Below, piece after piece: positions 2,997 through 18,149 of a DNA stretch of 19,374 nucleotides. The notes below the pieces were generated by a model that did not search any database, was not told the origin of the DNA, and was given only the letters and a program-made list of their open reading frames with translations. The stretch lies in assembly GCA_020724025.1 (NCBI GenBank), contig DYHU01000043.1, positions 1 to 19,374 of the forward strand, given 5' to 3'. Numbering within the stretch: the first letter of the stretch is position 1; every line of letters begins with the position of its first letter. Both the position numbers and the translations under genes were made by a program. This DNA is from Syntrophorhabdus sp. (lineage in GTDB: Bacteria > Desulfobacterota > BSN033 > UBA1163).

Positions 2997-3068
2997 ATTG
3001 CAGATTGCGGATTGCGGATTGCAGATTGAAAAAATCTGAAATCTAAAATCTGAAATCAAAAATTAAAA
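2997..3068. repeat. Heptad inverted-repeat element, thrS/infC gap
   Basis: Immediately after the thrS stop come about five 7-nt units of type GATTGCR (2997-3030), followed by about five 7-nt units of type AAATCTR (3031-3068). The second array is a degenerate reverse complement of the first, so RNA could fold into a long imperfect hairpin. It ends just before the infC Shine-Dalgarno. Confidence 0.8.
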
Positions 3069-3086
3069 TAGGAGGAGGTGGAATTT

Positions 3087-3611
3087 ATCGGCAGGGATGT
3101 ACGCGTCAATCGCGAGATTCGGGCAAGGGAAGTCAGGGTCATCGACTCTGAGGGAAAACAATTAGGGATTTTACCACTGGTAGAGGCGCTTCGGGCAGCG
3201 GCCAATGCCGATTTAGACCTGGTGGAGGTTTCGCCGAAATCGGAACCGCCGGTCTGTCGCATCATGGACTTCGGAAAGTTCAAATATCAGCAGAGCAAAA
3301 AGGCACATGATGCGAAGAAGAAGCAGGCTGTCGTCCATCTTAAGGAAGTGAAGTTGAGACCCAAGACAGAGGAACACGACTTTGAGTTTAAGCTCCGGCA
3401 TATTGAGCGTTTTTTAAAAGAGGGGAATAAGACCAAGGTCACCATCGTCTTCAGGGGAAGGGAGATTGCCCATTCCGACCTGGGAAAGAAGATGATGGAA
3501 CGAGTTGCAGAGCAGGCAAAAGAGTGGGGGAAGATCGAACAACCCGCAAAATTTGAGGGCAGGAATTATGTGATGATTCTAACTCCCCAGCCGAGCCAGA
3601 AGCCAGCATGA
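3087..3611 (+). CDS. infC: Translation initiation factor IF-3, probable ATC start
   Basis: IF-3 binds the 30S subunit, keeps it free of 50S and rejects non-canonical start codons. With the ATC at 3087 as start the protein has 174 residues. From that codon on it aligns position for position with the N-terminus of short IF-3 proteins such as that of Bacillus (a 7-residue lead, then NxxIRAREVR). It shows the core PPVCRIMDFGKF motif and the C-terminal domain. A GTG at 3078 is in frame but overlaps the Shine-Dalgarno GGAGGAGG (3071-3078) itself, so it cannot be served by it. The ATC lies 8 nt after AGGAGG. IF-3 genes commonly use ATT/ATC/ATA starts so that IF-3 represses its own translation. The start codon choice is inference. 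Confidence 0.93.
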   Translation: MGRDVRVNREIRAREVRVIDSEGKQLGILPLVEALRAAANADLDLVEVSPKSEPPVCRIMDFGKFKYQQSKKAHDAKKKQAVVHLKEVKLRPKTEEHDFEFKLRHIERFLKEGNKTKVTIVFRGREIAHSDLGKKMMERVAEQAKEWGKIEQPAKFEGRNYVMILTPQPSQKPA

Positions 3612-3618
3612 CTTATAT

Positions 3619-3680
3619 TGCAGATGCGGACCGGAGTAGGGAACGGTTTGAAACCGTTCCCTACTCATCCGAAATCTGCA
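3619..3680. repeat. Nested palindrome in infC/rpmI gap
   Basis: An inner perfect palindrome has 16-nt arms (3634-3649 and 3651-3666) around a single G. It is enclosed by an outer inverted repeat: TGCAGAT (3619-3625) with ATCTGCA (3674-3680) and CGGA (3627-3630) with TCCG (3668-3671). The outer part resembles the GATTGCAG-type units of the preceding gap, as if one palindrome had landed inside another. It starts 7 nt after the infC stop. Confidence 0.85.
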
Positions 3681-3716
3681 TTTGGTTCATTACTATTTCT
3701 AAAAAAGGAGGTCACT

Positions 3717-3914
3717 GTGCCAAAATTAAAGACGAACCGTGGAGCGGCAAAACGATTTAAAAAGACCGGGACCGGAAAGGTGAAGGCAAAGAGCGCCTTT
3801 GCCCGGCATATTCTGACGAAGAAATCGGCCAATCGGAAGCGAGGTCTCAGAAGACCTAAGATGGTCAGCAAGACGAATATTAAAGGGATCGAGAGATTGC
3901 TTCCCTATGTTTGA
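3717..3914 (+). CDS. rpmI: 50S ribosomal protein L35
   Basis: This small basic protein of the large subunit has 65 residues, the normal family length. It begins [20 protein letters not shown] and ends with the typical LPYV tail. The GTG at 3717 follows AGGAGG (3706-3711) by 5 nt. The open frame continues upstream to 3618, but that part runs through the palindrome and is not L35-like. It is co-oriented with infC and rplT and presumably co-transcribed. Confidence 0.95.
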
Positions 3915-3991
3915 AAGCCAAATAGGAAACATGTATCAATTTAGCTTTTTGAAAAACAGCATTAAATAGAGCGTCTAACGCTAACGGATTT

Positions 3992-4064
3992 GTCATTCCT
4001 TCTGCGAAAGCAGGAATCCAGTTCTTTTGGAAGCCCTCTGGATTCCCGCCTGCGCGGGAATGAC
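3992..4064. repeat. GTCATTCC-type palindromic element in rpmI/rplT gap
   Basis: The left arm, GTCATTCC...GGAATCCAG (3992-4021), and the right arm, CTGGATTCCC...GGGAATGAC (4038-4064), are imperfect reverse complements, each itself containing a smaller inverted repeat. This sequence type is a familiar dispersed palindromic repeat in proteobacterial genomes (from memory). It splits the normally tight rpmI-rplT pair with a 218-nt gap. I see nothing else in that gap apart from the rplT ribosome-binding site (GAGGAAGGAG, about 4115-4124). Confidence 0.8.
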
Positions 4065-4132
4065 GGGCAAAGAAACTTTTACAAAGCGCTAAAGTGTTAC
4101 GAAATGATTAATTTGAGGAAGGAGTATGTTAC

Positions 4133-4507
4133 ATGCCAAGAGTAAAAGGTGGACCGAAGACCAGAGCGAGAAGGAAAAAGGTCTTAAAGATGGCCAAGGG
4201 CTATGTGGGAGGACGGAGCAAGCTCTATCGGACAGCAGTGGATGCTGTCCACCGCGCCTTAGCTTATGCCTATCGGGACCGCAGGGCAAGAAAGAGGGAT
4301 TTTCGGAGGTTGTGGATCACCCGGATCAATGCGGCGGCGAGGGCGCACGGCCTTTCCTACAGCCGCCTGATGGATGCCTTGAAGAAAGCCCATATCGAAT
4401 TGGACCGGAAGATATTGGCCGATTTGGCAGTGAGCGATCCCGGCGCCTTTTTGAAGATTGTTGAGCTGGCCAAAGCCAATGCAGGGACAACGAACATTAA
4501 ACGATGA
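4133..4507 (+). CDS. rplT: 50S ribosomal protein L20
   Basis: L20 is an early 23S-binding assembly protein and, in several bacteria, the translational repressor of rpmI-rplT. The protein has 124 residues against the usual 117-119. It begins [20 protein letters not shown] and keeps the conserved [11 protein letters not shown] and [15 protein letters not shown] regions. The extra C-terminal residues (about TTNIKR) are encoded by the start of the following heptad repeat, so the repeat seems to have rewritten the gene's end. The ATG has an upstream AAGGAG. Confidence 0.96.
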
Positions 4508-4572
4508 ACAATGAACAGTGCAACCTCCTTTTTTTGTTCATTGTTCGTTGTCCATCGTTCATAGTACGTCCC
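4490..4572. repeat. Heptad inverted-repeat element overlapping rplT end
   Basis: Units of 7 nt (AACGATG, AACAATG, AACAGTG) begin inside the last codons of rplT. After a short T-rich spacer they are answered by 7-nt units GTTCATT, GTTCGTT, GTCCATC, GTTCATA. Perfect 12-nt arms GAACAATGAACA (4506-4517) and TGTTCATTGTTC (4535-4546) extend with wobble pairs to about 17 bp. A run of seven T lies in the loop, not after the stem, so it is not a standard terminator. Confidence 0.85.
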
Positions 4573-4600
4573 ACATGAGGGTCTTCAAAGGAAGAGATCA

Positions 4601-5617
4601 TTGAAAGAGGAGCTGGAAAAGATACGAGAGGAGTGCCAGGCCGCCCTCTCTCTGGCGAAGACGGAGACAGAGGTCTCCGAAATCCGGATCAGGGTGTTGG
4701 GGAGGAAGGGCGCTCTGACGCAACTTCTCAAGCGTTTGGGAACGCTTCCTGAGGCTGAGCGGAGAGAGATAGGCAGGAAGGCGAATGAGATCAAGGAAGA
4801 TCTGGAGGCAAGGATTGGGGAAGGTCTCCTCCAAATCCAGGAACAGGAGAGAAGGGAAGCCCTGGCAAGAGAGAGGATCGATGTGACCCTTCCGGGCAGG
4901 AGGATGGTCTCCGGGAGAAGGCATCCCCTCACTCAAACCCTGGATGAGATCATCCATATCTTCTCGCGGCTGGGCTTTGAAGTGGTCGAAGGCCCGGAAG
5001 TGGAGCTGGACTATTACAATTTCGAAGCCCTCAACATTCCAAAGGGACATCCCGCCAGGGAGATGCAGGCCACCTTCTTTATCTCCGAAGATGTGGTCTT
5101 GAGAACGCATACCTCTCCTGTCCAGGTCAGGACGATGGAGAAAAAAAGGCCGCCGGTGCGTGTAATCTGTCCAGGGGCGGTCTACCGGTGCGATTCGGAC
5201 CCGACACACTCTCCCATGTTTCATCAGGTCGAGGGCCTTCTGGTGGACAGGGGAATCACCTTTTCGGACCTCAAAGGAGTATTGACCGTCTTTGTTCACC
5301 AGATGTTTGGGAGAGAGACAAAACTGAGGTTTCGTCCCAGTTTCTTCCCCTTTACGGAACCGAGCGCGGAGATCGACATCGAATGCTTCATCTGCGGGGG
5401 AAATGGATGCGGTGTCTGTTCAGGCACGGGATGGCTTGAAATTTTAGGCTCCGGCATGGTTGATCCTGCTGTCTACCGATTCGTAGACTACGACCCTGAA
5501 GAGGTGACCGGCTTTGCCTTTGGCATGGGGATCGAAAGGATCGCCATGCTGAAGTATGGCATCAACGACATTCGGCTTTTCTTTACGAACGATCTGAGGT
5601 TTCTGAGGCAATTTTAG
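4601..5617 (+). CDS. pheS: Phenylalanyl-tRNA synthetase alpha subunit
   Basis: This is the catalytic subunit of the alpha2-beta2 enzyme that charges tRNA-Phe. The 338 residues match the family. An N-terminal coiled-coil region (about 1-90) contacts tRNA. The class II core follows, with [26 protein letters not shown] and motif 3 [14 protein letters not shown] (304-317). A four-cysteine cluster (C262, C265, C270, C273; CxxC-x4-CxxC) is typical of many bacterial PheS. The start is TTG at 4601 with AAGGAAGA about 7 nt upstream; no ATG fits. It is followed after 74 nt by pheT. Confidence 0.97.
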
Positions 5618-5620
5618 ATT

Positions 5621-5672
5621 TCACCCCCACCCATCCCTCCCCCCTCGAGGGGGAGGGTGAGGGAGGGGGGGA
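5621..5672. repeat. CCCTCC/GGGAGG hairpin between pheS and pheT
   Basis: A pyrimidine-rich arm (5622-5643) and a purine-rich arm (5650-5671) meet at the palindrome CTCGAG (5644-5649). They form a GC-rich imperfect hairpin of about 22 bp, starting 4 nt after the pheS stop. It is not followed by a T-run. Similar CCCTCCCCC-CTCGAG-GGGGGAGGG repeats are scattered in other proteobacterial genomes (from memory). It may tune pheS/pheT stoichiometry or protect the upstream 3' end; that is inference. Confidence 0.75.
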
Positions 5673-5691
5673 TTGATTTGATGGAAAGCAG

Positions 5692-8100
5692 ATGAAGATC
5701 AGTCTCAACTGGCTCAGGGATTATGTGGATATCCGGATGGGGTTGAAGGAGTTGATCAACCTTCTGACCATGGGAGGATTAGAGGTTGAGGCGGCCACGC
5801 CCACGGGTCAGGGGTTTGAGAAGATCGTTGTGGCTGAGATTCAATCCATCCGGAGACACCCCAATGCAGACCGTCTTTCCCTGGTCGAAGCGAGAACCTC
5901 TGAGGAAAAATTTTCGATCATCTGCGGCGCCACGAATATTCGGGAAGGACAGAGGGTTCCTCTGGCTCTGGTCGGGGCGAAACTTCCCGGCGGCGCTGAG
6001 ATCAAGCGGTCGAAGATCAGGGGAGAGGTCTCCGAAGGAATGCTCTGTTCGGAGATCGAGCTGGGCCTGGGGCAGGACGCCTCCGGGATTATGATCCTCG
6101 ATCACAATGCCTCTCTGGGCGCGAGCCTGGGGGAAGCCCTCGGATTGACGGATACGATTCTCGATATCAGCATCACGCCGAATCGCCCGGACTGCCTCTG
6201 TGTGATCGGAGTGGCAAGAGAGATTGCGGCCCTCACCCATCAGCGGATGAAATGTCCGGCCCTCTCGCTTTCTGACACGGGCAGTGAGATTCTTCAAAGA
6301 ACGTCCGTAACCCTTCTGGATCCGGATCTCTGTCCCCGGTATGTGGCGCGCATCATCGAAGGAGTAAAGATCGGTCCCTCTCCGAATTGGATGCGAAACC
6401 GGCTGGAGAAGGTGGGGATTCGCTCCATCAATAATGTCGTCGATGTGACCAACTATGTGATGATGGAGTATGGACAACCCCTCCATGCCTTCGATTTTGA
6501 ACTATTGGAAGAGGGGAGAATTGTGGTCCGCAGGGCTCGGAAGGGTGAGGGGTTTACCACGCTGGACGGGGTTAAGAGGGGCCTTGACGAAGAGATGCTC
6601 ATGATCTGCGATGGAGTTAAACCGGTGGCTGTTGCCGGCGTGATGGGAGGGCTCAACTCGGAGATCAGGACCGAGACCCGGACCGTCCTTCTGGAGAGCG
6701 CCTACTTTAATCCAATAAACAATCGAAGGACTTCCAAAAAGCTCGGCTTTGAGACAGAGGCCTCATACCGGTTTGGAAGGGGAATCGATTACGGAGGGTG
6801 TCTGGATGCGGCCAACCGCGCCGCCTCAATGATTCAGGAACTGGCAGGAGGAAGGGTCGTTGAAGGAGTAGTGGATGCTTATCCGAAACCCATCCGGCCC
6901 AATCCGATCCATTTGAGCATCCTCAGCGCAAACCGGATACTGGGAACGGAGATCCCGGCCCAACAGGTCAAGGCTTATCTGGAGGGTCTGGAACTGGATG
7001 TCCGTGAGGAGGATGAAGCGACACTGATCATAACTCCTCCTTCCTTTCGCGGCGATCTCGAGAGGGAGATCGATCTGATTGAGGAGGTGGCGCGCCTGAA
7101 TGGGTATGAGAATATCCCGCTTACCCTTCCGAAAGGGCCTCCTTCTTCCGAGGAGATGAGCCGGGAGTTCGTCCTTGAGCAGAAGGCAAAAGATCTCCTC
7201 ATCCGGCACGGTTACAACGAGGTGCTCACATATAGCTTTACGGCTCCCCTATCTTTGAATGGACTCGGCCTTTCCACGGACGATCCGAGGAGGAAGTGCC
7301 TTCCAATCCTGAACCCTCTGACAGAGGATTCTTCCGTGATGAGAACCTCACTGATTCCGGGTCTGATGGAAACCGCCCGTTACAATCTCTCCTATAAGAA
7401 TGTCAACATCAGGATCTTCGAGCTGAAAAAGGTCTATCTGATGGCGGAGGGGGAACGACTTCCAAAAGAGGTCAAATATCTAACAGGCCTGGCCATGGGA
7501 ATGGATGGAGACCTCCATTGGACCTCTTCAGTGAGGTCGGTCGATTTTTACGATGTCAAAGGCTGCATCGAGGATCTCTTCGAATTCCTGCAGGTAAAAG
7601 GGGTAAAATTTGACAGGACGGAGGATATCCCCTATCTTCATCCCGGGAAGTCATCGAAGGTCATCCTCGGAGAAGAGGTTCTGGGCGTTCTGGGAGAGAT
7701 CCATCCGGAAGCGCTAAACCATTATGAGATTCCCGGAAAGGTTTATCTCTTCGAGATCGATTTCGACCGGATGGTGAAATATGCAGAGGAAGGAAGGAAA
7801 TTTCGACCCCTTCCGAAATTTCCTGCGGTCCACCGAGACCTCTCCATCGTGGTCGAGGATCACCTCGAAGCGGAAAAGGTGGAAGAGGCCATCCGTCTGC
7901 TTCAGCAACCTTTTATCGAGGAAGTCAGACTTTTTGATGTCTATCGGGGTTCTCCGGTCCCTCAAGGAAAGAAAAGCGTCTCTTATCGAATCCGGTATCA
8001 AGCCAGCGACCGGACCCTGACGGACGATGAAGTGAACCAATATCACGAGAAGGTCATCTCCCGGTTGAGGGAAATCTTCAAGGCGGAATTGAGAGGTTAG
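5692..8100 (+). CDS. pheT: Phenylalanyl-tRNA synthetase beta subunit
   Basis: This is the non-catalytic, editing and tRNA-binding partner of PheS; 802 residues is the normal length. Domain order is OB-fold tRNA-binding domain (about 41-150), B3/B4 editing domain (about 205-385), B5 domain (about 402-475) ending in the FRGDLEREIDLIEEVARLNG motif, the inactive class II-like core (about 480-690) and the ferredoxin-fold anticodon-binding domain (about 705-801). The only possible start is the ATG at 5692 (an in-frame TGA lies at 5674). Its Shine-Dalgarno is weak (GGAAAG). A four-codon ORF (5681-5695) overlaps the start as ATGA, which may hint at re-initiation. Confidence 0.97.
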   Translation: MKISLNWLRDYVDIRMGLKELINLLTMGGLEVEAATPTGQGFEKIVVAEIQSIRRHPNADRLSLVEARTSEEKFSIICGATNIREGQRVPLALVGAKLPGGAEIKRSKIRGEVSEGMLCSEIELGLGQDASGIMILDHNASLGASLGEALGLTDTILDISITPNRPDCLCVIGVAREIAALTHQRMKCPALSLSDTGSEILQRTSVTLLDPDLCPRYVARIIEGVKIGPSPNWMRNRLEKVGIRSINNVVDVTNYVMMEYGQPLHAFDFELLEEGRIVVRRARKGEGFTTLDGVKRGLDEEMLMICDGVKPVAVAGVMGGLNSEIRTETRTVLLESAYFNPINNRRTSKKLGFETEASYRFGRGIDYGGCLDAANRAASMIQELAGGRVVEGVVDAYPKPIRPNPIHLSILSANRILGTEIPAQQVKAYLEGLELDVREEDEATLIITPPSFRGDLEREIDLIEEVARLNGYENIPLTLPKGPPSSEEMSREFVLEQKAKDLLIRHGYNEVLTYSFTAPLSLNGLGLSTDDPRRKCLPILNPLTEDSSVMRTSLIPGLMETARYNLSYKNVNIRIFELKKVYLMAEGERLPKEVKYLTGLAMGMDGDLHWTSSVRSVDFYDVKGCIEDLFEFLQVKGVKFDRTEDIPYLHPGKSSKVILGEEVLGVLGEIHPEALNHYEIPGKVYLFEIDFDRMVKYAEEGRKFRPLPKFPAVHRDLSIVVEDHLEAEKVEEAIRLLQQPFIEEVRLFDVYRGSPVPQGKKSVSYRIRYQASDRTLTDDEVNQYHEKVISRLREIFKAELRG

Positions 8101-8128
8101 AGATTTCGGGGAAAGGAGGATGAAGGCC

Positions 8129-8422
8129 ATGACGAAGGTCGATATTGTGGAGGCCATTTACGAGAAGGTCGGGTTTTCTAAGAAAGAGGTGGCCAAGATT
8201 GTGGAGTCCATCTTCGATATCATCAAGGAGCATCTCCAGCGTGAGGACAAGATCAAGATCTCAGGTTTTGGGAATTTTGTCATCCGAAACAAGAGGTCAA
8301 GACGGGGCCGCAACCCTCAGACAGGGAATGATATCGAAATCACTCCGAGGCGGATTTTGACTTTTAAACCAAGTCAGGTGTTGAAGGCCGGCCTCAACCG
8401 AAGGGACACCCAGACGGAATAG
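8129..8422 (+). CDS. ihfA: Integration host factor alpha subunit
   Basis: This DNA-bending HU/IHF family protein would pair with an IHF-beta encoded elsewhere. It has 97 residues against 99 in E. coli. Hallmarks are ISGFGNF (44-50) and the beta-arm motif GRNPQTG with intercalating P63. It begins MTKVDIVEAIYEKVGFSKKE, strongly like IHF-alpha, and sits directly after pheT as in E. coli. An ATG at 8120 is in frame, but it abuts the Shine-Dalgarno AAGGAGG (8113-8119). The ATG at 8129 has a 9-nt spacing and is preferred. Confidence 0.95.
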   Translation: MTKVDIVEAIYEKVGFSKKEVAKIVESIFDIIKEHLQREDKIKISGFGNFVIRNKRSRRGRNPQTGNDIEITPRRILTFKPSQVLKAGLNRRDTQTE

Positions 8423-8642
8423 AGTGACTTTCCGGAGTGAGTGAACCCCGCACCTCATATTAAACAAAGGGGTTTCGATGAGGCCGTTGTTTTGATATAC
8501 ACCTCCCTCCCCTTTCTAAAGAACGAAGCTTAAGAACGAAGCTTCAAATGGTACGGGGTGAATCGGAGCGGATGAGTCACCGTGGGTCTGCTTCCATCCC
8601 TGTGAAGGGATGGCGGGGTCGGCAGTGTGAGGGGGTAAGGCT
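8423..8642 (+). other. ihfA/merR gap with tandem 13-mer and small stems
   Basis: This 220-nt stretch shows a perfect tandem duplication of AAGAACGAAGCTT (8519-8531 and 8532-8544) and a 7-bp hairpin CCATCCC/GGGATGG (8594-8600, 8607-8613). It also has two interleaved 6-nt complements: AACCCC (8444-8449) with GGGGTT (8469-8474), and CCTCAT (8453-8458) with ATGAGG (8478-8483). The interleaving would allow a pseudoknot. No convincing promoter or open frame was found. Confidence 0.4.
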
Positions 8643-9038
8643 GTGACCAGATTGCTGAGAAAGCGAGAAATGGAATATCCCATCTCCCAGGAAAGGCTCT
8701 ATTACCGGATTGGAGAGGTGAGCCGGATCACGGGGATCAAGCCGCATGTCCTCCGTTACTGGGAGTCGGAGTTCAGAGTGATCAAACCCCACAAAGGAGG
8801 GTCCCTCCAGCGCCTCTACCGGAGAAAAGATCTGGACCTTATCCTGAAAATCAAAAAACTCCTCTACGAAGAGGGTTTTACCATCTCCGGAGCGAAGAAG
8901 AAGATCAGAGACCTTGAGCGTGCGGAGAACAACAGGGTGAAGCTGAGGCTGGTTGAGAGGAGACCAAACGGAAGAGATCGCGAATTGCTGTTGGCGATCC
9001 GGGAAGAACTGAAAGGGATCAGAAGATTACTGGAATAG
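8643..9038 (+). CDS. MerR-family transcriptional regulator
   Basis: A DNA-binding regulator of about 131 residues. The MerR winged helix-turn-helix (about 20-88) contains YYRIGEVSRITGIKPHVLRYWE, followed by the wing residues QRLYRRKDLD and the dimerisation helix. The C-terminal part is short, charged and lacks cysteines, so it does not look like a metal sensor. A MerR gene of this kind behind ihfA is common in deltaproteobacteria (from memory). The start is uncertain: GTG 8643 has a GAGGGGG about 8 nt upstream. ATG 8670 would give a 122-residue protein with a more typical N-terminal lead but no visible Shine-Dalgarno. Target and effector are unknown. Confidence 0.85.
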   Translation: MTRLLRKREMEYPISQERLYYRIGEVSRITGIKPHVLRYWESEFRVIKPHKGGSLQRLYRRKDLDLILKIKKLLYEEGFTISGAKKKIRDLERAENNRVKLRLVERRPNGRDRELLLAIREELKGIRRLLE

Positions 9039-9101
9039 GCCTTTTTGAAGAGAGAGGGTGCATCATTCCGGGGGCGATCGGGAAAGCAGAAGGAGGATTT
9101 T

Positions 9102-9569
9102 ATGAATTGGGTGGTGAGTTGTACGGCTTGTGGAAGTTCTTATGTCTATGAGTCGGGCCAAGGCCTCCCTGACATCTGTTCCGCCTGTTCTGAAAAGAGG
9201 AAGAAAGAGGTAAAAAAATTTCTGGAGAAGGAACAGAAGAGAAGGGAGATTATGGCCGTTCATGCTTCCGATTTCGGCAGCCGAAAAATTGTGAAGACAC
9301 TGGGAATGGTGACCCACGAACATATTTTCGGAGTGGGCCTGGTTCAGGATCTGGATTTGAAGAGGTTTAACGGAGGGGTTTCCATCTCCTGGGCGGAGAA
9401 GGTGAGGAGCGGAAGGGACCTCTGTATCCGGTCGCTTGAGGATGAGACAATTGAGATGGGAGGAAATGCCGTCATCGGAGTGGATGTGAACTATCAGGTT
9501 CTGGGAACGCATAATGATATGGTGATGTGGCTGGTGGCGGCCAGAGGGACCGCCGTGATCGTCGATTAA
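9102..9569 (+). CDS. Zinc-ribbon plus YbjQ/UPF0145-like protein
   Basis: A 155-residue protein with two parts. The N-terminus has a four-cysteine zinc ribbon (C7, C10, C26, C29) followed by a lysine/glutamate-rich helix. Residues from about 60 to 155 match the UPF0145/YbjQ (heavy-metal-binding-like) fold, with the GNAVIGVDVNYQVLG segment and the terminal GTAVIV strand. YbjQ proteins form oligomers; their role is unresolved. The ATG at 9102 follows AAGGAGGA by 5 nt, so the in-frame extension to 9045 is not used. It follows the MerR gene by 63 nt and could share its transcript. Confidence 0.8.
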   Translation: MNWVVSCTACGSSYVYESGQGLPDICSACSEKRKKEVKKFLEKEQKRREIMAVHASDFGSRKIVKTLGMVTHEHIFGVGLVQDLDLKRFNGGVSISWAEKVRSGRDLCIRSLEDETIEMGGNAVIGVDVNYQVLGTHNDMVMWLVAARGTAVIVD

Positions 9570-9615
9570 AGTGGTCTGGACTTTTATGATGAAATTGAAT
9601 ATACTGAAAACATAT

Positions 9616-9700
9616 TGGAATAATGGAATTATGGAATGGTGGAATGAACACCCAATATTCCAGTGTTCCGATATTTCGTTATTCCCTCATTCCGTGGTAT
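9616..9700. repeat. Octad inverted-repeat element upstream of tRNA-Pro
   Basis: Four 8-nt units of type TGGAATNN (9616-9647) are followed by five 8-nt units of type TTCCNNNN (about 9657-9696). The second array is a degenerate reverse complement of the first. It has the same architecture as the heptad elements but a period of 8. It lies between the YbjQ-like gene and tRNA-Pro. Confidence 0.75.
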
Positions 9701-9704
9701 TGAT

Positions 9705-9781
<77 letters not shown>

Positions 9782-9801
9782 TTTTCCCTTCTCTATGGAA
9801 T

Positions 9802-10557
9802 ATGGCCGATCCGTTCATCATTTTGGTTACCAATGACGATGGAATCTATTCGAAAGGGATTCTGGTCTTGGCAAAAGCTCTCCAGGAAATCGGGGAAGTA
9901 TTTATCGTTGCTCCGGATAGGGAGAAGAGCGCCATTGCTCACTCCCTTACCCTGCACCGCCCCCTTCGAGTCGAAAGAATCAAAAAGAATGTTTATGCCG
10001 TGGACGGAACTCCGGCCGATTGTGTTTACCTCGGGGTCAATGCGATTTTACCTGCGCGGCCACAGCTTGTCGTCTCCGGGATCAACAAGGGAGGGAATTT
10101 AGGGGATGATGTCACCTATTCCGGAACGGTTTCCGCCGCCTTTGAGGGGACCCTGCTGGGAATCCCTTCCTTTGCCATCTCCCTGGTCTCGCGGAGTCAT
10201 TTTAAATTCCATACGGCCGCCCGATTTGCCCTAAGGGTAGCGCGCCATATCCTCAAAAAGGGACTTCCCAAGGATACCCTCCTCAATATCAATGTCCCCA
10301 ATCTTGATGAAAGAGAAATCAAGTCCTACAAAATCACTCAACAGGGGAGATGGACCCATAACGGAAGTGCGGTCGTAGAGAAGATGGACCCCCGTGGTAA
10401 AAAGTACTATTGGATCGGCGAGGGACCGCTCACCTTTGATCAAAGAGGAGATACGGATTTCGAGGCGGTATCCAATTCCTATATCTCCATCACTCCGCTC
10501 CACCTTGATTTAACCAATTATTCCTCCATCCATACGCTAAAAAAGTGGAAATTGTGA
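9802..10557 (+). CDS. surE: 5'/3'-nucleotidase SurE
   Basis: A metal-dependent nucleoside monophosphate (survival protein) phosphatase of 251 residues, a normal length. The family signature VTNDDG gives the metal aspartates D12 and D13. The conserved stretch [19 protein letters not shown] follows, and later NVPN. The ATG at 9802 gives the expected short lead before the first strand. The upstream in-frame extension is only translated tRNA. It lacks a good Shine-Dalgarno (GGAA 2 nt from the ATG) and lies 20 nt behind tRNA-Pro, so it is probably co-transcribed with the tRNA. The next gene starts 32 nt after its stop. Confidence 0.95.
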
Positions 10558-10589
10558 GACAGAACAGTCCACCGACAAAGGAGGGGGTT

Positions 10590-11690
10590 ATGAAAACGAC
10601 ACTCAGCATTATCAAAGCGGACATTGGGAGCATTGGGGGGCATATCCGGCCCAGCGAGAGACTGATTGCGGAAGTCAGAAATTATGTGGCCGAAAAAGGG
10701 AAAGGAATAATCTCCGATTTCTTTGTAAGCCATACCGGAGATGACATTGCCATCCTCTTCTCACACGACCTTGGGAAGGGGAGCGAAAAAATCCATGGAC
10801 TGGCCTGGGACACCTTTGTGGCCGGGACAAAGGTGGCAAAGGATCAAGGGCTCTATGGAGCGGGCCAGGACCTGCTCAAAGACTCCTTTTCAGGCAATGT
10901 GAAGGGAATGGGCCCTGCTGTGGCTGAGATAGAATTTGAGGAGAGACCGAATGAGCCCTTTCTCTTTTTTGCCGCCGACAAAACCGATCCCGGAGCCTAT
11001 AATCTTCCGCTCTATCTGGCTTTTGCCGATCCGATGTATAATGCGGGGCTCATTCTCAGCCCCTCGATGAACAAAGGGTTCAAGTTCGTCATCATGGATG
11101 TCAACTATACGGAGGGAGACCGGCTGATCGAGCTGAATGCCCCTGAGGAGATCTATGACATCGCCACTCTTCTGAGAGACAACCAGCGATTCGTGGTCGA
11201 AGCCATCTATTCCAGAAACAATGGAGACATTGCTGCTTCGGTGAGCACGACCCGCCTTCACAATATCGCCGGCAAATATACTGGAAAGGATGACCCTGTC
11301 ATGCTGGTGAGAGTTCAAGGTGCCTTCCCTGCCACGGGTGAGGTTCTCGCTCCATTCAACATCGGCCATTATGTGGCAGGTTTTATGAGGGGAAGCCATA
11401 CAGGGCCGCTCATGCCCGTGAAGATGAATTCGAGTATCTCCTACTTCGATGGACCGCCCGTGGTCTGTTGTCTCGCTTTCTGCGTCCATAACGGCAAGCT
11501 GACCGAACCGGCCGATGCCTTTGACCATCCCTACTGGGACTGGGTGAGAAACAAAGTTTCCCAGAAGGCATCAGACATCCGCCAGCAGGGTTTTTCAGGA
11601 GCGGCCATGCTGCCTTATTATGAACTTGAATACGGCGGCATTGTCGAGAAAATGGGAATGTTGGATAAGAGGTTTAAGGTAAAAAAATAA
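10590..11690 (+). CDS. Fructose-1,6-bisphosphate aldolase/phosphatase, archaeal type
   Basis: This enzyme family makes fructose 6-phosphate directly from triose phosphates by joining aldolase and phosphatase activities in one active site, a gluconeogenic one-way step known mainly from archaea and deep-branching bacteria. The 366 residues fit the family. Visible are KADIGSIGGH with metal ligands D11 and H18, the pair D51-D52, and the GKYTGKDDP segment, where Y230 and K233 match the family's catalytic Tyr and Schiff-base Lys. HNGKLTEPADAF and the C-terminal LPYYELEYGG follow. The ATG at 10590 follows AAAGGAGGGGGTT; the in-frame ATG at 10545 overlaps surE and lacks support. Confidence 0.93.
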   Translation: MKTTLSIIKADIGSIGGHIRPSERLIAEVRNYVAEKGKGIISDFFVSHTGDDIAILFSHDLGKGSEKIHGLAWDTFVAGTKVAKDQGLYGAGQDLLKDSFSGNVKGMGPAVAEIEFEERPNEPFLFFAADKTDPGAYNLPLYLAFADPMYNAGLILSPSMNKGFKFVIMDVNYTEGDRLIELNAPEEIYDIATLLRDNQRFVVEAIYSRNNGDIAASVSTTRLHNIAGKYTGKDDPVMLVRVQGAFPATGEVLAPFNIGHYVAGFMRGSHTGPLMPVKMNSSISYFDGPPVVCCLAFCVHNGKLTEPADAFDHPYWDWVRNKVSQKASDIRQQGFSGAAMLPYYELEYGGIVEKMGMLDKRFKVKK

Positions 11691-11694
11691 CCAC

Positions 11695-11813
11695 AAGTTT
11701 CTAAAAGTTCAAATTACAAAGTTTAAATATCAAAGGAATGACAAATTCCAAAAGATTTTGACATTTTGGTTTTGGAGTTAATTTGAACTTTGAACTTTGA
11801 CATTTGGCATTCG
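11695..11813. repeat. Heptad inverted-repeat element, FBP-AP/miaB gap
   Basis: Starting 4 nt after the stop, loose 7-nt units of type AAAGTTC/AAATTAC (11704-11740) are mirrored by units TTTGAAC, TTTGAAC, TTTGACA, TTTGGCA (11783-11810). Perfect 13-nt arms AAAGTTCAAATTA (11704-11716) and TAATTTGAACTTT (11779-11791) confirm the inverted arrangement. Confidence 0.8.
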
Positions 11814-11861
11814 GTAGCCAGAGGCTATATCTGCTACGGGGTTAGAGTACAGGGGAGTCGA

Positions 11862-11878
11862 CTTATTCAATGAATAAG
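11862..11878 (+). promoter_or_regulatory. Small hairpin enclosing miaB start codon
   Basis: CTTATT (11862-11867) and AATAAG (11873-11878) pair around the 5-nt loop CAATG, which contains the ATG of miaB (11870-11872). The nearest Shine-Dalgarno-like stretch, GGGGAG, is about 15 nt upstream and poorly placed. Whether the hairpin forms is unknown; the stem is AT-rich. Confidence 0.3.
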
Positions 11879-13204
11879 CGCGTTTACATCGAAACCTATG
11901 GCTGTCAGATGAATGAGCACGACTCGGAGCGGATGCTCCGGCTCTTGGAAGGATCGTTTTATCTGGAGACGAAGGAACCCCAGGAGGCGGATCTCATTCT
12001 TATCAATACCTGTAGTGTAAGGGAAAAGCCGGAAAATAAGGTTTACAGCGCCTTAGGGAGATATAAAGGATTGAAAGAGGAGAGGAAAGCGATTCTCGGG
12101 GTGGCAGGATGCGTTGCCCAGCAGGAAGGCGTCCGGCTTTTAAACCGGGTTCCCTACTTAGATATGGTGATCGGGACGCATGCTATTTCGATCCTTCCGG
12201 ATCTGCTCAAAAAGATTGAAGCTACGGGAAAAAGGTTCTGTGAAACCAGTTTTGATGAGAATGGGACCTATCTGAAAACTCCCTTGCCCCCCGGCCCCCT
12301 TCCTAAAGTGAAATCCTTTGTGACCATCATGCAGGGGTGCGACCATTTCTGTTCCTACTGTATTGTCCCCTATGTGAGGGGAAGAGAGAAAAGCCGGCCC
12401 GGCGCTGAGATTCTTGCAGAGGTCGGACATTTGGCAGAAAGGGGTGTGAAGGAGGTTTGCCTGCTCGGTCAGAATGTAAACGGTTATGGGAGAGGGTTGG
12501 AAGGAGAGATGAGCTTTCCGGAACTCCTCCACCGCATCAATGAAATTGAAGGGATCGAGCGAATCCGGTTTACCACTTCCCATCCTAAGGATTTATCCGA
12601 GGAGTTAATCCAGGCCTTTTCAAGCCTTTCCAAGCTGTGCGAGCATATCCATCTTCCCTTCCAATCGGGTTCGGACCGAATTTTAAAAAGGATGCACCGG
12701 GGTTATTCGAGAGCCTCCTATCTCGAGAGAATAGAACGTTTGAGAGAGGGTTGCCCTCTGATGGCGATGACGGCCGATGTCATCGTAGGTTTTCCGGGGG
12801 AGGAAGAAGAGGATTTTAATCAGACCCTGGACTTGATGAAGAGGGTTCAATTCGATGACCTCTTTTCGTTTAAATATTCCACGAGAAGAGGCACCCGTGC
12901 CGCCCAATTCGATGATCAGGTTGAAGAAAAGGTAAAACAGGAACGGCTGGCGATCCTCCAGGGAATTCAAAAAGAGATCACCCTCCGGAAAAACCAGGCC
13001 TTAGAGGGCCGGATAGAAGAGATTTTAGTGGAAGGCCGTAGCAAGCAGAGCGATCGGGACGTGACCGGAAGAACCCGCACCAACAAAATTGTCAATTTTA
13101 AAGGCGATTTGAAATTAGCGGGGAGACTGATTCCGGTCAGAATAACGAACGCTTACGCTCACTCACTGAGGGGTGAGATGTTAAGTTCTGAGTCGGCCCA
13201 TTGA
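11870..13204 (+). CDS. miaB: tRNA-2-methylthio-N6-dimethylallyladenosine synthase MiaB
   Basis: A radical-SAM methylthiotransferase that converts i6A37 to ms2i6A37 in tRNAs reading UNN codons. The 444 residues fit the family. The N-terminal UPF0004 domain has the second-cluster cysteines C12, C48 and C81. The radical-SAM CxxxCxxC motif is C157, C161, C164 in the stretch GCDHFCSYCIVPYVRGRE. A TRAM domain occupies about 375-440. The Y-G-C-Q-M-N start and RGREKSR are diagnostic of MiaB over MtaB/RimO. It is followed after 22 nt by fbp. A MiaA gene is not in the window. Confidence 0.96.
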   Translation: MNKRVYIETYGCQMNEHDSERMLRLLEGSFYLETKEPQEADLILINTCSVREKPENKVYSALGRYKGLKEERKAILGVAGCVAQQEGVRLLNRVPYLDMVIGTHAISILPDLLKKIEATGKRFCETSFDENGTYLKTPLPPGPLPKVKSFVTIMQGCDHFCSYCIVPYVRGREKSRPGAEILAEVGHLAERGVKEVCLLGQNVNGYGRGLEGEMSFPELLHRINEIEGIERIRFTTSHPKDLSEELIQAFSSLSKLCEHIHLPFQSGSDRILKRMHRGYSRASYLERIERLREGCPLMAMTADVIVGFPGEEEEDFNQTLDLMKRVQFDDLFSFKYSTRRGTRAAQFDDQVEEKVKQERLAILQGIQKEITLRKNQALEGRIEEILVEGRSKQSDRDVTGRTRTNKIVNFKGDLKLAGRLIPVRITNAYAHSLRGEMLSSESAH

Positions 13205-13226
13205 GAAACGAAGGGAAGGAAACCCC

Positions 13227-14216
13227 ATGATCCGATTAGAGCAAACCTTCATGAATTTTCTCCTTCAACACCAGGAGAAACACAACCGCACCTACCACTT
13301 CCTTATCCTGATGGACGCCCTGATCAATGCGGCAAGACATATTCAGCATTACTATCTGACAGGCGCCTTAAAGGGAAATCTCGGCTTAGCGGGTGACGTA
13401 AACGTGCAGGGCGAGGATGTCATGCGTATGGATCAGATCGCCCAGGAGATTACGGTCCACTATTTGAGGACCTCGGGCCGGGTCATTCATGCGGTCAGTG
13501 AGGAATCGGAGGAGATCATCTCAATCAATCCTGAGGGGGGACGTTATTTTGTCTATTTCGACCCCCTGGATGGTTCATCCAATATCCCCCATGGACTGCC
13601 GGTCGGCTTTTTATTCGGCATTGCTAAACGAAATCTAAAAGGCCCTGAAGACGGCCACCTGAGGGCCGGGAGGGATTATATCGCCGCCGGCATGTTTGTG
13701 ATCCCAACAGGGACGTTTACTCTCGGACTCAAAGAGGCGGGGACCTGGAGATTCCACATTGACGAGACCATGACTTTTGTCAGGCCTACACGGATGGTCC
13801 TTCCCGAAGACACGAAAAGCTGGGAATTGTCATTTAACGCATCCAACCGCTATACCTATGCTGAATGGGTCCAGAAATGGATCATGGAGAATGAAAGCAA
13901 GTATGCCTTCCGATACCTCGGCGCGTTAGCCGGGGATTTTCACCGTGTTCTGGCGAACGGCGGTATGTTCATGTACCCGGCCATCGTCAATCATCCCAAT
14001 CCAAAAAAGAACCGTCCCGAGGGCAAACTGCGCCTGATGTATGAGGCGGCAGTGGTGGCCTTCATGTGCCGCGAAGCGGGCGGGATGGCTGTCAATGAAG
14101 AGGGAATCCCGATTCTTGATATCCAGCCGGCGAAGCATCACCAGCGAACAGCGCTCTACGTGGGGTCAAAGAGATTGGTGGAAGATATCGCCAGGGTCTT
14201 AAAAACAAAAGGTTAA
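13227..14216 (+). CDS. fbp: Class I fructose-1,6-bisphosphatase
   Basis: It dephosphorylates fructose 1,6-bisphosphate to fructose 6-phosphate. The 329 residues match the class I family. The metal-binding motif FDPLDGSSNI is at 111-120, with the preceding acidic SEESEE (91-96). The C-terminal substrate-binding region GKLRLMYEAA and the AFMCREAGG stretch follow. The ATG at 13227 has AAGGAAA 7 nt upstream. This is a second, unrelated FBPase besides the archaeal-type enzyme 1.5 kb upstream. Its stop codon lies inside a short hexamer array. Confidence 0.96.
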   Translation: MIRLEQTFMNFLLQHQEKHNRTYHFLILMDALINAARHIQHYYLTGALKGNLGLAGDVNVQGEDVMRMDQIAQEITVHYLRTSGRVIHAVSEESEEIISINPEGGRYFVYFDPLDGSSNIPHGLPVGFLFGIAKRNLKGPEDGHLRAGRDYIAAGMFVIPTGTFTLGLKEAGTWRFHIDETMTFVRPTRMVLPEDTKSWELSFNASNRYTYAEWVQKWIMENESKYAFRYLGALAGDFHRVLANGGMFMYPAIVNHPNPKKNRPEGKLRLMYEAAVVAFMCREAGGMAVNEEGIPILDIQPAKHHQRTALYVGSKRLVEDIARVLKTKG

Positions 14217-14235
14217 GGCTAAGGTTGAGGCTAAG
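14211..14235. repeat. Hexamer tandem array at fbp stop
   Basis: Four 6-nt units GGTTAA, GGCTAA, GGTTGA, GGCTAA run through the fbp stop codon (14214-14216). No inverted partner array was seen before the fba ribosome-binding site. It may be a short relative of the heptad elements. Confidence 0.55.
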
Positions 14236-14277
14236 AATGTTGGATACAAATTCACAGATTTAAAAGGAGAGAAAGCC

Positions 14278-15570
14278 ATGGCGAAAAAGAAAGTGTCCAA
14301 AGCCGATTTTAAAAAAGCCCTGGAGAAGGGGCGACCGCCCAATATCAAGAGACTTTTCCCCCATTCGAGGGCCTTAATCGTGAGCGGAAAGGTAATCGAT
14401 CGGGCCATGAGGGCTAAAGGTAAAACCATGGCCATGGCTGCAAACGGCAGAAATCAATTGATCATCCGGGGAGTCCTTCAGGCGGCCCAGCGAGCCAACG
14501 CTGTTGTCATCATCGAGATTGCAAAATCCGAAGGAGGAACAAAAGCCTATTGTGCGGTGAACTACTGGAATATGGCCATGCTGGTGGATGCCATGTGCAA
14601 CGAACTTGGCATTACCATCCCGGTGGCCATTCATGCGGACCATTATGGCATCAAAAACGAGAAGGACCTTGCCGTGGCGAAGGTTGAGATTCCCACCTTC
14701 TTTGAAGCCGGAATGACCTCGATTGCCATTGATGCGTCTCATCTCCCGGATGACCAGAACCTGTTGGCTAATATTGCCGTCCATCCCTTTATTCCCAAAT
14801 GGGCAGGGCTCGAAACAGAGGTGGGGGAGATCAAAGGCGAGGAAGGGCTTTCCACGGTGGAAGAAGCCCTGTTTCTTATCCAGGGGCTGAATGGACATGA
14901 TATCTTCCCGGATTGGATCGCTTTAAACAATGGAACGACACATGGCATCGAAGAGAAGGACTCCGGGATCCAGGTGCAATTGACCGCCGGTATTCACACC
15001 GCTTTAGAGAAATACCAGATCTCAGGCGCTCAACATGGAACCTCAGGCAACAGTTCCGAAAGGCTTCGCCAAATCATTGCCCAAACCCATACCACCAAAG
15101 CCAATGTCGCCACGGCTCTCCAGATGATCTCATGGGGTGTTCAGGTGAACGATTATGGAAATGCGATTCTGGATGGGGATGGAAATTTCAGTAAAGTGAA
15201 AGGAGAGGGGGTTTCAGAGGAGATGTGGGCAGAGATGGTGGTTTATGCCCAATCGAAGAACTGGAAAAAGGGGGACTATAAAAATCTGAACCTCCCCTTT
15301 GAAAATAAACTGCTTGCCCAGCCCAAAGAGGTCAGAAACCGGATGGCAAAGGGGGTGGAGGAGTTTGCTTACAAGATGATGACAGAGGTTTTTTATTGTC
15401 AGGATACAGCCCCGCTTGCCATCGAGGCCATTTTGAAGGCGGGCTCCTATGACCTTGGTCCTAAAGCGACACGAATAGAAAATCCTGCGGAATGGACGGA
15501 AAGCAAGATTATCGAACGAGCCTCCCAGCTTGGAAGAGACAAGGGGCCTGCCGGCAAATTTGACGACTGA
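14278..15570 (+). CDS. Class II fructose-bisphosphate aldolase, atypical long form
   Basis: A zinc aldolase of 430 residues, versus about 285-360 for the common class II types. Class II signatures are recognisable but shifted: HADHYG (119-124), where D121 and H122 match the catalytic Asp and first zinc His; the ETEVGEIKGEEG zinc-glutamate region; LNNGTTHG and AQHGTSGNSSERL for the other histidines; and the phosphate-binding VQVNDYGNAILD. A positively charged N-terminal extension and a helical C-terminal tail of about 90 residues add the length. The ATG at 14278 follows AAAGGAGAG. Substrate is inferred from motifs and the adjacent fbp; a related ketose-bisphosphate aldolase activity is possible. 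Confidence 0.85.
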   Translation: MAKKKVSKADFKKALEKGRPPNIKRLFPHSRALIVSGKVIDRAMRAKGKTMAMAANGRNQLIIRGVLQAAQRANAVVIIEIAKSEGGTKAYCAVNYWNMAMLVDAMCNELGITIPVAIHADHYGIKNEKDLAVAKVEIPTFFEAGMTSIAIDASHLPDDQNLLANIAVHPFIPKWAGLETEVGEIKGEEGLSTVEEALFLIQGLNGHDIFPDWIALNNGTTHGIEEKDSGIQVQLTAGIHTALEKYQISGAQHGTSGNSSERLRQIIAQTHTTKANVATALQMISWGVQVNDYGNAILDGDGNFSKVKGEGVSEEMWAEMVVYAQSKNWKKGDYKNLNLPFENKLLAQPKEVRNRMAKGVEEFAYKMMTEVFYCQDTAPLAIEAILKAGSYDLGPKATRIENPAEWTESKIIERASQLGRDKGPAGKFDD

Positions 15571-15601
15571 GAAAATGGGGGTCAATCGAGGCGATCAGTT
15601 T

Positions 15602-15688
15602 CATTGCGGATTGCAGAATGCGGATTGGGGAACGAAAAAACCAGAAAGAATCTTCATTCCGCACTCCGCAATCCGAATTCCGCAATGG
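15602..15688. repeat. Heptad inverted-repeat element between convergent genes
   Basis: The left array has 7-nt units ATTGCGG, ATTGCAG, AATGCGG, ATTGGGG (15603-15630). The right array has units ATTCCGC, ACTCCGC, AATCCGA, ATTCCGC (15656-15683). Perfect outer arms are CATTGCGGA (15602-15610) and TCCGCAATG (15679-15687). It ends 3 nt before the DUF47 stop and lies 31 nt past the fba stop, so it could serve both transcripts as a 3' structure. Confidence 0.85.
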
Positions 15689-17493: not shown

Positions 17494-17883
17494 TTATAAA
17501 GGGTGAAGTTTTAAGTTGGGGATTTGGGTGAAGTGGTTGTCATGGGTGAATAGAGCGAGATCATATTCGAGAGCAAGGGTGGCTATGGCAGTATCTGTTA
17601 ATGGAAGATTTATACCTTTTCTCCTCAAGGACGATGAGAGTTTTCCTGCTTTAATCCATAAAGGGGTGGATATTTCTAAAATGCTGACTCCTGTTAGAAG
17701 ATCTGCTATCCGCTCCTCTTCAATCGGTTTTTTAATACCCTGCATTAATTCGGCTATGATTATTCCCGTCGAAACAATTCGATTGCTTTCGATGAGGTTC
17801 GTAATTTCCTTTGCGATTTTATCCGAACCTTTCAGAAAATCGATAAAAACAGAGGTGTCAACGATTACGCCATCTTTTATCAT
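17494..17883 (-). CDS. vapC: VapC-like PIN-domain toxin
   Basis: A 129-residue PIN-domain ribonuclease, the probable toxin of a type II pair. The four acidic active-site residues are visible: D9 in VIVDTSVFID, E45 in IIIAELMQG, D97 in LPLTDTAIA and D115 in FTHDNHF. The ATG at 17883 lies inside the antitoxin gene (26-nt overlap), giving translational coupling. Upstream in-frame codons back to 17961 are antitoxin sequence read in another frame. All catalytic residues are intact, so the toxin is probably active. Confidence 0.9.
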   Translation of the reverse strand: MIKDGVIVDTSVFIDFLKGSDKIAKEITNLIESNRIVSTGIIIAELMQGIKKPIEEERIADLLTGVSILEISTPLWIKAGKLSSSLRRKGINLPLTDTAIATLALEYDLALFTHDNHFTQIPNLKLHPL

Positions 17884-18094
17884 TCTCTTCCATCTCCTCA
17901 GTCTCAAGTTTTTCCAATTCCTCGGTAACGTCCTCAATCTGAATCTTGCCTCTGAGAGCAATCAATTCTTTCATCTTTCTCTGCCTTATGAATTCTTCCA
18001 TAGCAGTAATGATTGCCTTCGTCTTGGATTTCTCGCCAGAAATTTTTTGCACCTTGGAAAGGAGAGCGTCAGGTATGTTTAATGTCGCACGCAT
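17858..18094 (-). CDS. vapB: VapB-like antitoxin (DUF2191-type)
   Basis: A 78-residue protein beginning MRATLNIPDALLSKVQKISG, a ribbon-helix-helix DNA-binding N-terminus typical of the DUF2191/VapB antitoxins, with the family's EEFIRQRKMKELIALRGKI segment. The acidic C-terminal tail (about 52-78) would wrap and block the toxin. The ATG at 18094 has GGAGGTG 6 nt upstream. An in-frame ATG lies further upstream (18142), but it is inside the promoter spacer. It precedes and overlaps vapC. Confidence 0.9.
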   Translation of the reverse strand: MRATLNIPDALLSKVQKISGEKSKTKAIITAMEEFIRQRKMKELIALRGKIQIEDVTEELEKLETEEMEENDKRWRNR

Positions 18095-18114
18095 ATTAAG
18101 CACCTCCATTATAT

Positions 18115-18149
18115 GTATATATGATACGCTGTGATTCCTCACATGTCAA
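18115..18149 (-). promoter_or_regulatory. vapBC promoter with two operator-like palindromes
   Basis: On the - strand, TTGACA (18149-18144), a 17-nt spacer and TATCAT (18126-18121) make a sigma70 promoter. The spacer contains the perfect palindrome TGTGAggaaTCACA (18143-18130). Over the -10 box is a weaker one, GTATcatatATAC (18127-18115). Autoregulated vapBC promoters usually carry such inverted repeats for the VapB-VapC complex. Confidence 0.65.

Follow-up and report, generated by a model that had tools for sequence, protein, structure and literature searches.

What are the short-period repeats that fill most intergenic gaps of one bacterial contig, and how did they come to lie there? The stretch analysed, termed the window, is the whole 19,374 nt of contig DYHU01000043.1 of Syntrophorhabdus sp. 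(assembly GCA_020724025.1), read on the forward strand, to which all coordinates refer. The original prediction that nine of its gaps hold different repeats is borne out by direct reading, Tandem Repeats Finder and an inverted-repeat search, which place repeats in 9 of the 12 gaps of at least 30 nt, between 2997 and 15690, from thrS to phoU. 'Almost every gap' is therefore true of nine gaps and not of three (ihf–merR, merR–yhb and surE–fbpase; genes are named as in the order given further below), where none of the listed elements was found, the ihf–merR gap having a 13-nt unit present twice. At all five sites with a 7-nt (four) or 8-nt (one) period, a degenerate tandem array is followed by its own reverse complement, as had been described, with fold z-scores of −3.0 to −5.0. 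This inverted layout does not extend to the 6-nt site (14205–14235), where the array is direct and forms no hairpin (fold z −0.76).

We propose, with a probability of roughly 0.57, that the elements are several families of small (∼50–150 nt) non-autonomous dispersed repeats, a reading preferred because it best explains together the copies at other loci, the polarity, the nesting and the class differences. An array family would be built on a degenerate 7- or 8-nt unit and would run from an array of mostly purine-rich sequence, through a short and variable centre, into the inverted array, mostly pyrimidine-rich. Families would spread by whole-element copying into intergenic DNA, presumably by a putative trans-acting enzyme, and slippage would change the unit number. 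Copies would survive mainly just 3′ of stop codons, away from divergent promoters, the gap bias thus probably reflecting survival rather than targeting. On the time scale of the genus, elements would disappear from their gaps, give way there to other families or be invaded by them, and different classes at one gap would represent replacement.

The comparison genomes were congeners found through a scan of the PheS locus and a genus search. Samples comprised 373 kb of the 3.4 Mb of genome G001, 152 kb of G238 and 180 kb of G141, with 58 kb of G136 as a sample from beyond these congeners; loci reading as N were excluded (8 of 41 in G001, 1 of 21 in G002, 1 of 5 in G176 and 2 of 5 each in G003 and G020). 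Genes were called with our own codon-bias script, which misses small genes such as rpmI, and array scans covered the gap DNA, excluding gaps longer than 600 nt, or 350 nt for hairpin analyses.

In the 12 called gaps of the window, lag-7 autocorrelation exceeds that of dinucleotide shuffles with z of 4.8 and 7.3 in two runs. The period also rises above shuffled intergenic DNA genome-wide in the sampled congeners, as the original prediction required, with lag-7 z of 7.5–11.7 (G001 11.7, G238 8.4, G141 7.5), and it is strongest in G136 (20.1 and 18.7 in two runs). Lag 14 is likewise high in the window, G001, G238 and G136, G141 being the exception at 2.2, and lags 6 and 8 are raised in the genus. 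The gaps of G002, a less close relative, have no 7-nt period (z 1.3); ten Pseudomonas loci give 1.2 and one Geomonas locus 2.9. Three further genomes rich in the GATT class described below give 4.8, 3.7 and 2.4, and four without GATT matches −1.6, 0.3, −1.0 and 0.9. In one autocorrelation sample, 12 of 20 stretches had been picked through a contig match to the GATT pattern or adjacency to known stretches; lag-7 z is 8.9 without those twelve, a subset in which C13, itself a pattern match, remains. As a separate matter, the intergenic DNA of the ten Pseudomonas loci (L057, L059, L061 and others) has a lag-9 excess (z 7.5).

All nine window elements have related places in the sampled congeneric DNA (counted at E ≤ 0.01, where shuffled queries average 0 to 0.6), many of them matching one arm only. 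The statement that the sites are no copies of a single mobile element is half right: several elements are present, but for eight of the nine the genus has relatives outside the element's own gap. The fullest case is the TCAAAnn-class element between fbpase and miaB (11695–11813; fold z −3.75), with 8 of 9 related places outside its own gap: copies of ∼100 nt at 72–79% identity lie at other loci of G238, G141 and G001 in both orientations, sharing, by eye, an irregular internal stretch that interrupts the 7-nt phase at a common position. The GATTGCR class has two window elements, one between thrS and infC (2997–3068; fold z −4.3; family alignment), with 24 of 26 related places outside its gap, and one between the convergent fba and phoU (15602–15688; fold z −3.8; inverted-repeat search), whose 11 related places all lie in other gaps, its own gap not having been recovered in congeners. 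The TCAAA and GATT families align along most of their length, the latter with a common pattern of array, AAAA and inverted array in which the right arms of some copies are weaker. Whole-element dispersed copies of the kind seen in miniature inverted-repeat transposable elements (MITEs) are found for the TCAAA class, and most other window elements match by arm or part.

The 8-nt TGGAAT(N)2-class element before tRNA-Pro, downstream of yhb (9616–9700; fold z −3.0), is kept at its gap in congeners and has 8 of 15 places counted elsewhere, two of these eight (L001 and L223 9949) being probably its own gap, unmapped. The 6-nt array AAGGTT/AAGGCT of the fbp–fba gap has 2 of 3 related places elsewhere and may be one half of a longer palindromic element, GGTTACGGCTACG, found in the same gap of G216, G298 and G301. 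Three further elements are palindromes. That between infC and rpmI (3619–3680; sequence reading, inverted-repeat search and folding, RNA fold z −8.9), GTAGGGAACGG/CCGTTCCCTAC, has one of two related places outside its gap, and its GATT-type outer arms enclose, by eye, another palindrome, which recurs in the infC–rpmI gap of G301 and once elsewhere, in G238. The palindrome CATTCC..GGAATG between rpmI and rplT (3992–4064; sequence reading and inverted-repeat search, RNA fold z −2.3), which we take to resemble the dRS3-type repeats of Neisseria, has 7 of 8 genus places elsewhere and 22 places in the G002 sample. The C-rich/G-rich palindrome between pheS and pheT (5621–5672; RNA fold z −2.0), present in the same gap of G216 and G300, has 7 of 9 related places elsewhere. 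The exception to dispersal is the GAACAAT-class element between rplT and pheS (4480–4572; fold z −5.0; inverted-repeat search), for which 0 of 9 related places in the sampled DNA lie outside its own gap, all nine being that gap in congeners. The 5′ arm of this array (4480–4507) encodes the last codons of rplT, whose end varies among congeners, and arrays may remodel gene C-termini in this manner.

The same gap was compared in ten genomes of G001's genus, with classes assigned by eye. Units differ between congeners while the layout is kept, as predicted, and the family that occupies a given gap can vary or can contain a second family. The thrS–infC gap holds GATT in the window and G299, GTGGAAA in G001, G300, G216, G298 and G141, and other palindromes in G238 and G301; nothing was recognised there in G047 and G009. 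Between pheS and pheT lie the C-rich palindrome in the window, G300 and G216, CGAA in G141, G299 and, as outer arms, G238, GTTCGGA in G001, GATT in G047 and G301 and a different palindrome in G298, with none in G009. The rplT–pheS gap has GAAC in the window, G216, G141 and G299, a degraded form of it in G001 and, by eye, no element in G047, G301 and G009. A TGGAAT element is nested within this GAAC hairpin in G300, G298 and G238 (where the outer arms are degraded) and is absent from it in the window, G216, G141 and G299. By eye, a GTAAGGC-type hairpin likewise lies within the CGAA arms of the G238 pheS–pheT gap. The TGGAAT element before tRNA-Pro is kept in the window, G300, G141, G298, G301 and G299, and the stretch viewed in G216, which covers only the right arm, contains that arm.

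The order of the two arrays is nearly fixed. For seven strict classes in the genus sample, 30 elements are array-first and none reverse, orthologous copies included; the loose GTGGAAn class gives 3 against 1. Four other genomes give 4 against 2. The GATTGC class in the order CGGATTGC...GCAATCCG has 37 matches (33 distinct places by our count) in 11 of 20 array-rich genomes, namely 4 of 13 from G001's phylum (G001 and G136 not among them) and all 7 from the phylum of G321, and the opposite order has no match in the same 20 genomes. When classes are disregarded, 35 of the 41 array hairpins in the genus begin with their purine-rich arm (p 5e-6, a value too small, as family copies are not independent). 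Elsewhere this arm is first in 6 of 7 array hairpins of G136, with 2 against 0 in G002 and 1 against 1 in Pseudomonas. Hairpins without the period give 28 against 15 in the genus, 4 against 8 in G002, 9 against 6 in Pseudomonas and 5 against 4 in three further genomes.

Arrays also favour gene 3′ ends. Of 283 codirectional gaps, 47 contain a period-7 array, as do 8 of 30 gaps between convergent genes, and the 36 divergent gaps have none (Fisher p 0.0027). In the window, G001, G238 and G141 pooled, 24 of 29 codirectional array hairpins are nearer the upstream stop, at a median of 8 nt from it against 27 nt from the next start, in accord with the predicted start within about 10 nt of the stop codon; for 29 other hairpins the distances are 13 and 20 nt, a difference that is not significant (p 0.37).

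This position, together with the good folding, is what would be expected if the hairpins were selected as 3′-end RNA structures (for stability, processing or attenuation), their units drifting while pairing is kept. At the element retained between yhb and tRNA-Pro, the only site to lean this way, there are moreover 14 G·T against 6 A·C mismatches, and two pairs are changed on both sides in some sequence. Selection for sense-strand pairing, which the original prediction had offered as one explanation, should however raise G·T over A·C in the arms, and the two are about equal on the sense strand: 34 against 39 in array hairpins, 30 against 32 at retained sites, 35 against 40 in other hairpins and 5 against 8 in convergent gaps. 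With 126 other mismatches at the retained sites, the joint share of G·T and A·C is one third, the random expectation. The RNAalifold covariation term at the retained tRNA-Pro site is unfavourable (+1.53), and members of one family are found in both orientations with respect to neighbouring genes. A search of the window with Rfam covariance models at the gathering score returned two tRNAs and nothing else, so no Rfam family for the repeats. We regard selected RNA structure as a rather unlikely origin of the elements.

A narrower proposal, that they are bidirectional transcription terminators, draws on the strand-symmetric layout, purine first and pyrimidine last, and on the highest per-gap frequency being that between convergent genes (8 of 30). 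The elements nevertheless sit within the infC–rpmI–rplT–pheS–pheT cluster, and a scan for intrinsic terminators (a G+C stem and a T run) has no match at the nine sites, its 14 matches in the region comparing with 17.1 in shuffles; we consider this proposal improbable.

Unit classes recur well beyond the genus. In G001's phylum, 47 of 297 genomes contain GATTGCR triplets (one mismatch allowed; reversed control 11), and G136 has the most matches (204). In G321's phylum (locus L020 is titled Nitrospirae) 29 of 198 genomes contain them (control 3), with up to 135 matches in G377. They are found in 4 of 200 genomes of the Pseudomonas phylum, with one match each, and in 2 of a set of 20 genomes accessed by way of their loci. 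With two mismatches allowed, 50 of the 297 genomes have CCAATAA-type arrays, a count whose reversed control matches many genomes once or twice. Of the 12 genomes taken as CCAA-rich (at least 5 copies; G008, with 12 control against 9 true matches, was dropped), 10 are GATT-rich against 1.1 expected, or 6 of 8 against 0.7 without the four array-rich congeners, so that array classes co-occur.

Mobile hairpin pairs are known as REPINs, inverted pairs of multicopy extragenic sequence that come in several classes per genome (PMC3116915), and the elements resemble them in being inverted, intergenic, multicopy and of several classes. Their movers, the RAYT (Y1) transposases, could be at hand, since PF01797 genes are common, being present in 212 of the 297 genomes, among them G001, G238 and G141. 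However, as far as the available text of PMC3116915 goes, REPs are single palindromes tied to RAYTs, whereas the arms here are arrays of units. G002 has a PF01797 gene without the period, and in G136, the genome with the most GATTGCR matches, no Y1 gene was found in a search of the 297 genomes, all drafts, in which absence is not proof. A RAYT is accordingly disfavoured as mover, and we hold it most improbable that the elements are REPINs.

Among described repeats, the nearest relatives of the arrays are elsewhere. The original prediction supposed that heptamer arrays were not known in inverted form, and the available text of two papers says otherwise. Xanthomonas has GGGAATC heptamer repeats with 70 and 75 convergent pairs in two genomes (PMC4692102). 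Geobacter metallireducens has tandem 7–8-nt units, mostly paired on opposite strands at variable distance, in classes 1–3 (array alignments of 48, 47 and 16 sequences) proposed as sites for IHF/HU, and in G. sulfurreducens the proBA interval holds another repeat (PMC2700814). The layout itself, a degenerate 7/8-nt tandem array with an inverted partner, is therefore not new, and the window elements have it. As in the Xanthomonas and Geobacter kind, window-type arrays lie between genes, close to the preceding stop and seldom in divergent gaps, and, the 4480 element excepted, they are dispersed. The Geobacter case is also like the window in its several classes per genome and its position between genes such as proBA, and unlike it in the printed unit sequences; compared by eye alone, the window classes differ from the published units GGGAATC, GTTGCTYN and MTYCTGA. 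The Xanthomonas repeats are presented as one G-rich unit class, discussed as a G-quadruplex former, and the available text has nothing on several classes per genome, class turnover in one gap or nesting. The TAACTGA repeats of Beggiatoaceae are intergenic heptamer arrays, patchy across phyla, and in the text available differ in being direct (one indirect repeat is reported) and mostly before start codons (PMC4679880).

New here are the multiplicity of classes within a genome, the sharing of one class by two phyla, class differences within one gap and nesting; in the literature searched, which covered few subscription-journal papers, we found no description of inverted heptamer arrays that are of many classes and turn over. 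The Xanthomonas and Geobacter accounts, in the parts available, give no mechanism of origin (PMC4692102, PMC2700814). With a many-class system, near-fixed polarity, differing classes at one gap and a unit class common to two phyla, the genus of the window makes array origin and spread testable by comparison of close strains, and provides a defined element set in which to seek a mover.

Several points weigh against dispersed families. For the 4480 element the sample yielded no relative beyond its own gap, so that GAAC is at best a candidate for dispersal. By eye, no target-site duplication was noticed in congener gaps and, at the three places opened of five where arrays of one class occur as pairs, only host genes lie between them, hence no autonomous partner (the pairs at L096 and L230 are outside these three); nor was a transposition intermediate found. 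Element centres differ between copies in array-rich genomes, unlike those of a classical MITE, and the reading leaves these variable centres, the class-independent purine-first rule and the single-gap GAAC class unexplained. Same-unit arrays in different genomes may have independent origins, the class patterns were written after examples had been viewed and the divergent-gap sample is small (n = 36). Finally, in a comparison in which one element may enter repeatedly and several genomes are pooled, GATT arms are more similar to their own partner than to arms of other elements (identity 0.734 against 0.692, p 0.0002, 54 entries).

This last excess, the confinement of GAAC to one gap, the variable unit number and the varying centre would all be accounted for by local fold-back synthesis, in which template switching and slippage make each hairpin from local sequence, as the original prediction had also suggested. 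Building from local units does not, however, fit the eight of nine elements with relatives elsewhere or the two families aligned along most of their length. Five of six classes, moreover, have no significant own-arm excess, GATT being the exception: TGGAAT 0.714 against 0.722 (14 entries), CCAA 0.648 against 0.638 (4), TCAAA 0.769 against 0.805 (4), CGAA 0.598 against 0.656 (20) and GWGGAA 0.568 against 0.575 (4). GATT units recur many times per genome, in two phyla, and polarity is near-fixed, whereas local events would yield both orders. We give local fold-back little credence.

Since dispersed families leave the variable centres and the class-independent purine-first rule unexplained, we also put forward a speculative alternative, which we think very unlikely, that the arrays are written rather than moved. 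At a DNA break or a processed hairpin, an enzyme would extend both 3′ ends by one purine-rich heptamer after another, in the manner of telomere synthesis, before the two ends were joined head to head. The product would be an array, a variable centre and an inverted array, the purine-rich strand leading; unit classes would differ because their templates do, and nesting would arise where a hairpin already in place was broken.

The window's gene order, with protein names that we assume from reading the open reading frames (ORFs), is clp-like, tRNA-Val, thrS, infC, rpmI, rplT, pheS, pheT, IHF/HU-like (ihf), MerR-like (merR), YhbX-like (yhb, our own label), tRNA-Pro, surE, fructose-bisphosphate aldolase/phosphatase-like (fbpase), miaB, fbp, fba and phoU–pit. 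The two tRNA genes were placed by search and the others by reading ORFs.

Other repeats were seen in the congeners. In the pheT–ihf gap of L225, L227, L229 and L230, repeats with ends like ACCCCGTTAG..CTAACGGGGT directly follow the pheT stop and are absent in the window and G300. Among the 7-mers enriched in the gaps of G001, CCGTTAG ranks first. A family of more than 100 nt starting with GGTTACGGCTACGAAGCC or similar occurs in fbp–fba of L227, L228 and L229, in merR–yhb of L224 and, by eye, in reverse orientation in rpmI–rplT of G298. Within the window, a 20-nt inverted repeat before thrS (1043–1090), GGCATCATTCAT..ATGGGTGATGCC, is unlike the other hairpins and by eye conserved in L001 and L002; it is perhaps a thrS leader structure. 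At 17494–18142, ORFs resemble by eye a PIN-domain toxin and its antitoxin, VapBC-like.

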